Positions 26,419-30,276 of a stretch of 64,000 nt of DNA are shown here, piece after piece; position 1 is the stretch's first letter; the number at the start of each line of letters is the position of its first letter. Under the pieces are notes generated by a model. It was not told where the DNA came from. It did no database searches and saw only the letters and a program-made list of their open reading frames with translations. Source of the DNA: an uncultured Tateyamaria sp. GTDB taxonomy: Bacteria; Pseudomonadota; Alphaproteobacteria; Rhodobacterales; Rhodobacteraceae. The stretch covers positions 868,001 through 932,000 of the forward strand of contig CANMVD010000001.1 of assembly GCA_947501275.1 (NCBI GenBank). Reading direction: 5' to 3'. Made by a program: the position numbers and the translations under genes.

Positions 26419-26922
26419 ATGAAGCGCAGACATCTGCTTTTGGGTAGCGTGGCGGCTGTTGGGTTGGGGGCTTGTTCGCCTCAACAGACCAAGTTCAAGC
26501 GCTACAACGGCCCAGAAGTCACCTATGTCGTGGTCAACAAGGCCGCGCGGAAAATGTACCTGTTCCACAATAATACGGTGCTCAAAGAGTACGTCATCGA
26601 CCTTGGTTTTGAACCGATTGGTGACAAATTCTTTGAAGGCGATGGCCGCACTCCGGAAGGCAATTATTTTATTGACCGTCGTAATCCAGACAGCCGGTTT
26701 CACCTGTCGCTTGGCATATCATACCCAAATGCGCGTGATCGGGCAGAGGCGGCCGCCTTGGGCAAGCCTCCGGGCGGGGATATCTTCATTCACGGTGAGT
26801 CCAACCCATTCAAACGCAAGCGCAATGATTGGACATGGGGTTGTGTTGCTGTGACCAATGAAGAAATGGAAGACGTTTATGCGATGGTGCGCAACGGAAC
26901 GCCTATCCAGATCAATCCCTAA
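26419..26922 (+). CDS. L,D-transpeptidase (YkuD/YafK-type), predicted lipoprotein
   Basis: Lipobox-like GLGAC near N-terminus; IFIHGESNPFKRKRNDWTWGCVAVTNEEM catalytic motif. Confidence 0.85.
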   Translation: MKRRHLLLGSVAAVGLGACSPQQTKFKRYNGPEVTYVVVNKAARKMYLFHNNTVLKEYVIDLGFEPIGDKFFEGDGRTPEGNYFIDRRNPDSRFHLSLGISYPNARDRAEAAALGKPPGGDIFIHGESNPFKRKRNDWTWGCVAVTNEEMEDVYAMVRNGTPIQINP

Positions 26923-27027: not shown

Positions 27028-27687
27028 TCAGGTCGCAGGGGTTGTCGTGACGACGACGATATCTTCTTCGTCATCAGCAGCGATGTCTGCTGGCGAGTCT
27101 ACATCTTCGGGCACTAGCCGCGTTGCGGACGGGTTGGCCGTTGGAATAAGCGGGCTGTTGTCGGGATTGCCCATGACCATCGTCCACCAGATTTTGCCAT
27201 TTGGCTCTTGGAACCACGCAAAGCCAAGGTGACGCGCGTCGCGGGACAGAATCGTACGGCGCGTATCTGGTTGCTCCATCCAAGCCGCGAGCGTTTCCAG
27301 TTCGGTCTCGTATGATTCCGAAATGTTTTCACCCACAAGGGTTCCAGTGTACCCAACGCGGGCCAAACGGTCGATCGGAGATGACCCATCGGATCCAAAG
27401 TGCCAGGGCCGGTTTTGTAGGGACATATCCCGAGAGTGGGTTGCTGCAGCAGCGTTCAGTTGCGGGTTCAATTCAACCGGTTGCGCTCCTTGCGCACTGC
27501 GCAGCGCATTCACCGAATCCAGCATGCGGAACTGAAGTTTAGCCGTATCGCCATTGCGGATTTTGTAGAGTTTGGGCAGGGGTCGCCCATCCGATCCCTG
27601 CGTTGACGTATCGGATGTAGGCGCACAGGCGGCCACGGAAACGGCCATAGCCAAGAGCAATAAAACGCGTCGCATCATCTTAAGCAT
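27028..27687 (-). CDS. CAP (SCP-like) domain lipoprotein
   Basis: LAMAVSVAACAP lipobox; VNALRSAQGAQPVELNPQLNAAAATHSRDMSLQNRPWHFGSDGSSPIDRLARVGYTGTLVGENI. Confidence 0.85.
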   Translation of the reverse strand: MLKMMRRVLLLLAMAVSVAACAPTSDTSTQGSDGRPLPKLYKIRNGDTAKLQFRMLDSVNALRSAQGAQPVELNPQLNAAAATHSRDMSLQNRPWHFGSDGSSPIDRLARVGYTGTLVGENISESYETELETLAAWMEQPDTRRTILSRDARHLGFAWFQEPNGKIWWTMVMGNPDNSPLIPTANPSATRLVPEDVDSPADIAADDEEDIVVVTTTPAT

Positions 27688-27848: not shown

Positions 27849-28442
27849 ATGTCCAAGAAATCGTTTGTTACCCCGAGTCGCCGCTCGTTTTTGGTTGGCA
27901 CCGCCGCCGTGCTGGGCACGCCTGCGATTGCACAGTCGATTCCCGCTGGTCAGGCTGAACGCGACCCAACTATATCGGTTCGCCGCAATATTTCCAGCTT
28001 CCGCACGCTTGATTGGCGTCCCTATTTCGACTCGCTTCGCGGTGGCGCGATCCTTGTCGACATAGACAGCCGCGCCGTCCACTTCTGGAACGAAGATCAA
28101 AGCATCTACAAACTGTATCCGTCCAGCGTTCCTCTGAGCGAGGATCTGACGCGTCGTGGCCGCACAAAAATTGTGCTAAAGGATCCTGAGCCGGATTGGC
28201 GCCCAACGCCGTCGATGAAACAGCGCAATCCCGAGTGGCCAGACTATATCGGGCCAGGGCCGCAAAACCCGCTGGGCACACGTTCAATGCACCTCAGCTG
28301 GACCTACTATCGCATTCACGGAACGCATGATACGCGCAAAATCGGGCGGAAATCGTCCAATGGGTGCATTGGCCTGTACAACGAACATATCGAAGAACTG
28401 TACGCGATGGCCAAAGTAGGCACACAAGTGTTGCTAATTTGA
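27849..28442 (+). CDS. L,D-transpeptidase (YkuD) with probable Tat signal
   Basis: SRRSFLVGTAAVLGTPAIAQ leader; RIHGTHDTRKIGRKSSNGCIGLYNEHIEELY HG...SxGC motif. Confidence 0.88.
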   Translation: MSKKSFVTPSRRSFLVGTAAVLGTPAIAQSIPAGQAERDPTISVRRNISSFRTLDWRPYFDSLRGGAILVDIDSRAVHFWNEDQSIYKLYPSSVPLSEDLTRRGRTKIVLKDPEPDWRPTPSMKQRNPEWPDYIGPGPQNPLGTRSMHLSWTYYRIHGTHDTRKIGRKSSNGCIGLYNEHIEELYAMAKVGTQVLLI

Positions 28443-28583
28443 CGACATCGTGCCCGCTTGGCCGCTAAGCTCCTGAAACATGGTTTGCATTCGCTACCGA
28501 TTGTTGTTTACAGGAGCCCACGAGGTAAGTCTTGGGTGCGCTGTGGCGTTATCCGCCTGCGCGCAAAACTGGAGGTTATTAAC

Positions 28584-28763
28584 ATGAAAAAACTCGTTCT
28601 CGCTGCTGCTCTGACAGCCGCTGCTTCGACTGCATTTGCCGGTGCTCCTGCCGATCCAATCATCGAAGCCCCTGTCATCGTCGAAGAAGCGACCAGCTCC
28701 TCGGGCGGCATCATCCTGCCCCTGCTGATCCTGATCGCCGTTGCGGCAGCTGTTTCCGACTAA
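28584..28763 (+). CDS. 59-aa small secreted/membrane protein (copy 1)
   Basis: RBS ggagg; MKKLVLAAALTAAASTAFAGAPADPIIEAPVIVEEATSSSGGIILPLLILIAVAAAVSD: signal peptide + C-terminal hydrophobic segment; followed by terminator. Confidence 0.85.
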   Translation: MKKLVLAAALTAAASTAFAGAPADPIIEAPVIVEEATSSSGGIILPLLILIAVAAAVSD

Positions 28764-28784
28764 GGTCTGAACAACTGAAAATTA

Positions 28785-28817
28785 AAAAGGCAGCGCTGCA
28801 ATGCGCTGCCTTTTTTA
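28785..28817 (+). terminator. Intrinsic terminator
   Basis: AAGGCAGCG-loop-CGCTGCCTT followed by T-tract. Confidence 0.88.
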
Positions 28818-28904
28818 GTTTTAGCCCCTCTTGCGATGCAAAAAGAAAACCGCTTTGTTGATGCTGGATGTCTGTCATGTCCACAGGCCACTTTGGAGAC
28901 GAAT

Positions 28905-29084
28905 ATGAAGAAACTGATACTTGCTGCCACTCTGACCGTCGCCGCTTCGACTGCATTTGCAGGCAGCCCGGCTGACCCGATTGTCGAACCCATTGTAGTT
29001 GAGAATGATGCTTCTGGCTCGTCAGGCGGCATCATCCTGCCTCTTTTGATCCTGATCGCTGTTGCAGCAGCCGTATCGGATTAA
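28905..29084 (+). CDS. 59-aa small secreted/membrane protein (copy 2)
   Basis: MKKLILAATLTVAASTAFAGSPADPIVEPIVVENDASGSSGGIILPLLILIAVAAAVSD; same length as copy 1, last 21 aa identical. Confidence 0.85.
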   Translation: MKKLILAATLTVAASTAFAGSPADPIVEPIVVENDASGSSGGIILPLLILIAVAAAVSD

Positions 29085-29110: not shown

Positions 29111-29138
29111 AAGGCGGTGCTTGGCTCCGCCTTTTTCT
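29111..29138 (+). terminator. Intrinsic terminator
   Basis: AAGGCGG-loop-CCGCCTT then T-rich tract. Confidence 0.75.
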
Positions 29139-29159
29139 TTGCCCGGACCTATCTAAAGC

Positions 29160-30221
29160 TCAATCGAGCCAACCTTTGAGGTTTTCCTCGATCACCGTGC
29201 CGAGCGCATCAATGTGAGCATCATCATCGTTAAGACAGGGGATATACGTAAATGTCTCTCCCCCGGCTTCCTCAAAGCTCTCTTTGATTTCCTCGTTGAT
29301 CTCTTCCAATGTTTCGATGCAGTCGGCAGAGAATGCGGGTGCGCATACGGCAATGTTCTTTTTGCCAGCCTCAGCCAGACGGGCGACCTCTTCGACGGTG
29401 TAGGGTTGCAGCCATTCTTCCGGTCCGAACTTGGATTGGAACGTCGTCTTGATCTCTGTATCTGCCCAACCTAACCGCTCTTTCAGCAGGCGCGTCGTTT
29501 TCTGACACTGACAATGGTAGGGATCGCCTTCCATCAGGTAGCGTTTGGGCACACCGTGGTAGCTGCAAACCAGGATATCGGGGCGCGTGTCCATATCCGC
29601 ATAGGCGCGTTCGATGGATTGAGCGAGCGCCTCGATGTACTTTGGATGCGCATAGTAGGCTTCAACAGTCCGGGTCGTTGGTTGCCACTTTTCTTCCATC
29701 AACGCACGGAAGAATTCGTCATTTGCAGTCGCGGATGTAGCACCGGCGTAGTGGGGATACAGAGGAAAGAACAGGATCTTCTGGCAACCTGCCTCGGCCA
29801 TTTCCCGCACCTTGGACTTGGTCGATGGATTGCCGTAGCGCATACAGAAATCAACCATGACCTGATCGCCGTAACGCGCATGCATTGCCTGTTTCATTTT
29901 GGCGGTCTGGTCTTTGGTGATCGTCATGAGGGGGCTTTCACCCGCTTCATGGTTCCAAATCGATTTATAGGCTGCGCCAGAGGAAAACGGACGTTTCGTC
30001 AGGATGATGAGTTGCAACAACGGCTGCCATATCCACGGGCTGTAATCGATCACCCGGCGGTCTGACAGAAACTCGTTCAGATACCGGCGCATGGACCAAT
30101 AGTCATAGTTGTCAGGCGTACCGAGGTTTGCCAGCAAGATACCAACGCGTGCGGGCGGCACCGCCGGGTGATCCGCATCAGCATGTGCAGGTCGTGTCGC
30201 GTTTTTGCTGGTATCAAGCAT
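29160..30221 (-). CDS. hemH: Ferrochelatase
   Basis: RVGILLANLGTPDNYDYWSMRRYLNEFLSDRRVIDYSPWIWQPLL; CSYHGVPKRYLMEGDPYHCQC; CAPAFSADCIETLEEI. Confidence 0.96.
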   Translation of the reverse strand: MLDTSKNATRPAHADADHPAVPPARVGILLANLGTPDNYDYWSMRRYLNEFLSDRRVIDYSPWIWQPLLQLIILTKRPFSSGAAYKSIWNHEAGESPLMTITKDQTAKMKQAMHARYGDQVMVDFCMRYGNPSTKSKVREMAEAGCQKILFFPLYPHYAGATSATANDEFFRALMEEKWQPTTRTVEAYYAHPKYIEALAQSIERAYADMDTRPDILVCSYHGVPKRYLMEGDPYHCQCQKTTRLLKERLGWADTEIKTTFQSKFGPEEWLQPYTVEEVARLAEAGKKNIAVCAPAFSADCIETLEEINEEIKESFEEAGGETFTYIPCLNDDDAHIDALGTVIEENLKGWLD

Positions 30222-30276
30222 CTGTGGCCGTTCCGTTTGTCGCAATAGGCCTCAGATAAACGGATTTGTCCGCAGG

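Follow-up and report, generated by a model that had tools for sequence, protein, structure and literature searches.

The window analyzed here is a 64,000-nucleotide stretch of an uncultured Tateyamaria sp. (contig CANMVD010000001.1 of GenBank assembly GCA_947501275.1, positions 868,001 to 932,000). Two tandem genes for a microprotein of 59 aa are located in it, next to two L,D-transpeptidase genes and hemH, as the earlier note had described. The features of the locus, in window coordinates, are as follows.

26419..26922, + strand: YkuD protein 1, L,D-transpeptidase-like; the closest model is DpaA/YafK, below cut-off
27028..27687, - strand: DalA, divisome-associated lipoprotein with a CAP domain (NF052539, 268 bits, cut-off 200)
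27849..28442, + strand: L,D-transpeptidase 2 (Pfam YkuD, 3.6e-21), directly upstream of the microprotein genes, candidate ligase
28484..28512, + strand: promoter-like stretch of copy 1 (TTTGCA ... TG-TTTACA), recognized by phylogenetic conservation
28520..28583, + strand: 5' leader of copy 1, composed of ACGAGGTAAGTCTTGGGTGCG, a covarying hairpin and the ribosome-binding site TGGAGGTTA, followed by the ATG
28584..28763, + strand: microprotein copy 1, 59 aa (ORF list, homologues, AlphaFold2)
28784..28815, + strand: intrinsic terminator after copy 1 (terminator scan)
28905..29084, + strand: microprotein copy 2, 59 aa, with the anatomy of copy 1
about 29112..29139, + strand: terminator-like hairpin and T-run after copy 2 (read by eye)
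29160..30245, - strand: hemH, ferrochelatase (TIGR00109, above cut-off), convergent neighbour

Copy 1 consists of a predicted signal peptide (residues 1-19), an acidic segment at the start of the mature chain (20-36, beginning with Gly20), an SSSGG linker and a hydrophobic helix (42-58). The AlphaFold2 model has helices at 2-19 and 41-58, and the middle is unstructured. The last 21 residues are the same in both copies, and 11 of the 21 codons differ with no amino-acid change, exactly as had been counted earlier. No further members of the family were found in a search of the same genome. Each gene also has its own terminator, in agreement with the earlier reading. The terminator type seen after copy 1 is present 3' of the gene in nearly all relatives. 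The hairpin after copy 2 is AAGGCGG-loop-CCGCCTT with a T-rich tail, and it was missed by the scan because its 9-nt loop is too long for it.

Homologues are not absent: a search found relatives in 231 of 298 Rhodobacteraceae genomes (a sample of about one genome per genus), including Ruegeria, Sulfitobacter, Roseovarius, Roseobacter, Shimia and Tateyamaria. At the genus level, 19 of 20 genomes have a match, mostly as one copy per genome. Recurrence on this scale far exceeds what chance would give. Outside the family the microprotein is almost absent; in a class-wide sample, only 7 of 289 genomes match, and 4 of those 7 belong to Rhodobacteraceae. The search of plasmid records with the microprotein gave no match, and the search of Pfam and NCBIfam gave no model. 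The microprotein is thus a real, overlooked protein family, undescribed in these two libraries, based on its wide distribution in Rhodobacteraceae and the lack of a model. Its members share a signal peptide, a Gly-initial acidic segment containing Pro, SSSxG, a membrane helix and 1-3 terminal residues. L256 is from a reduced genome within the genus (G006); the order of DalA, L,D-transpeptidase and hemH is kept there and the microprotein is not detectable.

The distribution of selection along the protein differs from what the identical C-termini had implied. Among 19 orthologues from the genus, dN/dS is 0 for the signal peptide (no amino-acid change), 0.04 for residues 20-36 and 0.34 for the tail, which is the least constrained segment. 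The tail described earlier as invariant is therefore invariant within the pair of copies but not between species, and the idea that it is the conserved functional part is not supported. Other parts of the earlier description, a presumably translated and exported membrane peptide under purifying selection, are supported, and the predicted topology is probably single-span. What is conserved in the tail is hydrophobicity: the best 17-residue Kyte-Doolittle mean is 2.4-3.1 among 113 unique members, with L, I, V and A freely exchanged. The invariant alignment columns are M1, K2, A7, A19, G20 and P46. The last residue is D, S or N in 106 of the 113. Cys is absent in 111 of them, and most have no His.

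A small, exported, hydrophobic product encoded by paired copies could be a membrane-active or bacteriocin-like secreted peptide, similar to those of contact-dependent two-peptide systems. However, the gene is core, vertically inherited and syntenic across most genera, most of the genus has a single copy, and the N-terminal half shows near-zero nonsynonymous change. No dedicated exporter or immunity gene, as known for glycine-zipper bacteriocins of the CdzC/CdzD type, was noted among the neighbours. Such a function is very unlikely.

Where a genome has several copies, paralogues often share one tail sequence although the genes have many synonymous differences. The pS of within-genome pairs is 0.48 for the window pair, 0.60 in L022, 0.52-0.58 for a trio in L076, 0.32 in L084 and 0.30 in L213. 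Between-genome pairs at pS 0.4-0.6, which are not independent of each other, have identical tails in 0.1-0.2% and match on average at 10-11 of 17 residues. Exceptions to the within-genome matching are L120, L170 and L215. Because the close orthologue L003 carries the same tail as the window pair, the identity of that pair is unremarkable taken by itself. For several pairs, recent gene conversion is an unlikely source of the tail identity because their synonymous differences are high. The matching suggests that the copies in one genome pack together by their tails, perhaps as trimers. L120 (2618-3661) holds a tandem of three divergent members, whose tail reads GSMGGSGLW-L-PLL and which have additional residues at the C-terminus. 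At the hemH locus of L170 (3525-6600, G141), two tandem L,D-transpeptidase genes are followed by five tandem microprotein genes, in which two tail types alternate.

At least twelve genomes encode longer members, in which the same kind of N-terminus and helix is followed by a C-terminal domain of the S74 family (chaperone of endosialidase) with S-D-x-R-x-K. They are at L159, L171 and L178-L188, and one is in an array beside unfused copies. The S74 domain is absent from the window copies and was not found in their genome. The spacing of Ser and Lys equals that of the dyad S587/K592 in the trimeric self-cleaving domain of MYRF (PMC8326128). As in S74/ICA proteins such as phage endosialidase and MYRF, some relatives have the Ser-x4-Lys, here directly after the membrane helix; unlike in those proteins, the passenger is a membrane peptide and not a beta-helical fibre. 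In L171, the tail of the fused copy is common to four of its five unfused neighbours. These fusions are hints that the tail helices may assemble as trimers and then be cut free from the S74 chaperone.

The leader is found upstream of nearly all first copies. It is single copy in the genome, with nothing elsewhere within 3 mismatches. In its hairpin, 83% of cells are paired and 63 cells are changed on both sides; the covariation score is 0.656, compared with 0.309 for shuffled alignments and 0.25 or less when slid. The Rfam search gave only sub-threshold matches, none of them credible for the leader. The sigma-70 scan did not find the promoter-like stretch of copy 1, and CenR-type TGA-N8-TGA sites upstream are fewer than in shuffles (5/120 against 13/120). 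An upstream ORF starting from the TTG of the leader was dropped, since by eye its frame is not kept across species. The leader is likely to act in mRNA stability or translation and is a candidate for a new cis-regulatory RNA of Rhodobacteraceae. Together with the terminator, its hairpin would delimit a small stand-alone mRNA.

The strong conservation of the leader sequence and hairpin, and the short transcript with its own terminator, also fit the idea that the gene acts through its transcript, as a regulatory RNA, with only a secondary part for the ORF. Against this, purifying selection acts at the codon level along the ORF, the ribosome-binding site and the start are conserved, and copy 2 and other paralogues keep the protein without the leader. 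It is highly improbable that the RNA is the main product.

The DalA gene is located between the two L,D-transpeptidase genes. L,D-transpeptidase 2 has a twin-arginine-type signal, and its nearest NCBIfam models, LdtE, PRK10190 and PRK10260, are those of Lpp-type L,D-transpeptidases. For both YkuD proteins the matches to named models are far below the equivalog cut-offs and give direction only. DpaA, the nearest model for protein 1, removes Lpp from the cell wall. In 118 of 120 loci, the gene directly before the microprotein gene encodes an L,D-transpeptidase, with a median of 144 bp between the two. This linkage counts as weak, supporting evidence only, because synteny here is conserved for several genes. 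L034 has a family member without the L,D-transpeptidase. Obligate pairing with the adjacent enzyme was rejected, as the enzyme persists in some genomes with no detectable microprotein beside it. Some of the genomes without an adjacent copy have remote members of the same anatomy elsewhere. The upstream enzyme reads SSNGCIGL at window positions 28350-28400, in place of the usual YkuD signature SxGCxR with its final Arg; this variant may bear on transpeptidase specificity. In R. sphaeroides, deletion of dalA lowers L,D-cross-links (PMC10470522).

The next gene in most loci is hemH, which could suggest a heme-related accessory protein of ferrochelatase. But hemH is convergent with terminators in between, paralogues and S74-fused members also occur away from it, and Cys and His are scarce in the family, as noted above. 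A role in heme metabolism is scarcely credible. As hemH is merely a convergent neighbour, nothing here indicates heme, and hemH probably does not belong to the system.

The most constant feature of the mature protein is its N-terminus. The mature chain, as predicted, starts with Gly after A-x-A or a similar site in all 113 unique members, and G-x(1-7)-P is seen there in 111. The mature chains of OMP_b-brl (Omp25-type) beta-barrels of the same bacteria often start with the same tag. The barrel of the same genome reads AFA before the cleavage site and GSLDQPIASPPPP after it, and those of other genomes start with GGLSQPVTEP, GGIAEPVMTV or GGMAAPVTEP. Most of the other exported proteins sampled start with Gln, Ala or Ser. 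The tag is rare among them, and the few that are Gly-initial did not resemble the motif.

The tags of barrel and microprotein also co-vary. In G020, the barrel and the microproteins have GNxVFEAPxE, and in G031 both have GGYVAPV. With the best pair taken per genome, cleavage sites set by rule and partly corrected by hand, and kinship between genomes ignored, the second tag residue agrees in 15 of 16 genomes (permuted mean 7.0, p about 5e-5); the BLOSUM comparison over tag residues 2-9 of the same 16 genomes gives p 1e-4. The barrel and the microprotein probably have a recognition tag in common. The tag, DalA, the leader hairpin and the S74 fusions were all absent from the earlier note.

A shared tag does not by itself specify what recognizes it. 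The microprotein might be a non-covalent envelope protein whose tag binds a periplasmic partner that also recognizes barrels (BAM, a chaperone, DalA, or an L,D-transpeptidase as partner or decoy), and it would regulate this partner from the membrane. Bacteria often have small membrane proteins with regulatory functions, the position in the DalA/L,D-transpeptidase cluster is suitable, and a tag common to barrels fits any shared partner. However, a reacting amine would more readily account for the invariance of the terminal Gly, and the known fate of such barrel tags is linkage through the terminal Gly or Ala. Non-covalent binding is possible but rather unlikely.

Covalent attachment has precedents. 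The linkage of barrels to the wall is made by L,D-transpeptidases. In alpha- and gammaproteobacteria without Lpp, barrels are bound to diaminopimelate via an N-terminal Ala or Gly (PMC12274547). Wall-linked barrels have a Gly-Gly motif in gammaproteobacteria (PMC12729407) and an alanyl-aspartyl motif in Brucella and Agrobacterium (PMC10787603). BbpA of Coxiella was seen in muropeptides as ...J-GGPDYVPAPS (PMC11841132). Like BbpA, the Omps of Brucella and AopA/AopB of Agrobacterium, the microprotein has a small first residue followed by an acidic segment containing Pro, and like wall-linked barrels in bacteria without Lpp it occurs with L,D-transpeptidases. Its tag differs from the alanyl-aspartyl motif of alphaproteobacteria and has G, S, N or A at the second position. 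Its anchor is a single hydrophobic helix, and its linkage would be a predicted one. Since it has no barrel domain, it is not a member of the wall-linked barrels and at most works alike.

The microprotein resembles Lpp as an envelope protein of ~40-60 residues when mature, adjoining an L,D-transpeptidase gene and possibly trimeric. The polarity is opposite, as the wall end would be the N-terminus. The lipobox Cys of Lpp at +1 is absent and Gly is found there (2 of 113 members have Cys anywhere), and the C-terminal attachment Lys of Lpp is absent, 106 of the 113 ending in D, S or N. Among inner-membrane proteins, only OutB of Dickeya dadantii is known to be linked to the wall (PMC12274547). The microprotein would likewise connect the inner membrane and peptidoglycan, whereas OutB is linked by a C-terminal Lpp-like box, is anchored by its N-terminus and has no sequence relation to it. 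The OutB-type C-terminal box (VRTTKK) is absent from the window copies, whose hydrophobic tail ends in VSD.

Small staples between membrane and wall are possible in these bacteria, which do not have the classic one, Braun's lipoprotein (Lpp), given the tag shared with barrels and the adjoining cross-linking enzymes. Both genes may thus encode minimal wall-to-membrane tethers, an 'inverse Lpp' whose N-terminal Gly is joined to peptidoglycan in the manner of the barrels; this reading falls just short of an even chance. After export, the signal peptide would be cut after A19, exposing Gly on the short, unstructured acidic segment. The Gly amine would then be joined to meso-diaminopimelate by an L,D-transpeptidase, for which the enzyme encoded directly upstream is the most likely candidate. 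The C-terminal helix of 17-18 residues would remain in a membrane. Its strong hydrophobicity favours the inner membrane (N-out, C-in); the outer membrane would also fit, given the tag common to barrels. The product would be a wall-to-membrane staple, Braun's lipoprotein reversed, with the tails of the copies packed as suggested above. That the mechanism is a variant of covalent wall tethering has about even odds.

The tag also provides a sequence rule, in which a mature N-terminus of G-x(1-7)-P would predict which Rhodobacteraceae barrels are wall-linked. By this rule, the Omp25-type barrel on contig C4 of the same genome (L122) is predicted to be so.

Because microproteins and outer-membrane barrels carry the same tag, a single L,D-transpeptidase system could serve both membranes. 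A broader model, speculative and on balance unlikely, is that Rhodobacteraceae use such microproteins of ~40 residues in place of Lpp, that their tails co-assemble, some of them by S74, and that a single system, encoded in the DalA cluster, fastens both membranes to the wall. Which outer-membrane proteins are wall-bound in R. sphaeroides, and which proteins of Rhodobacter and its relatives are covalently attached to peptidoglycan, has been described as unknown (PMC10470522). The microprotein is a specific and widely conserved candidate for such a wall-attached protein in a group of abundant marine bacteria, and its attachment residue, its enzyme and the resulting muropeptide are predicted.
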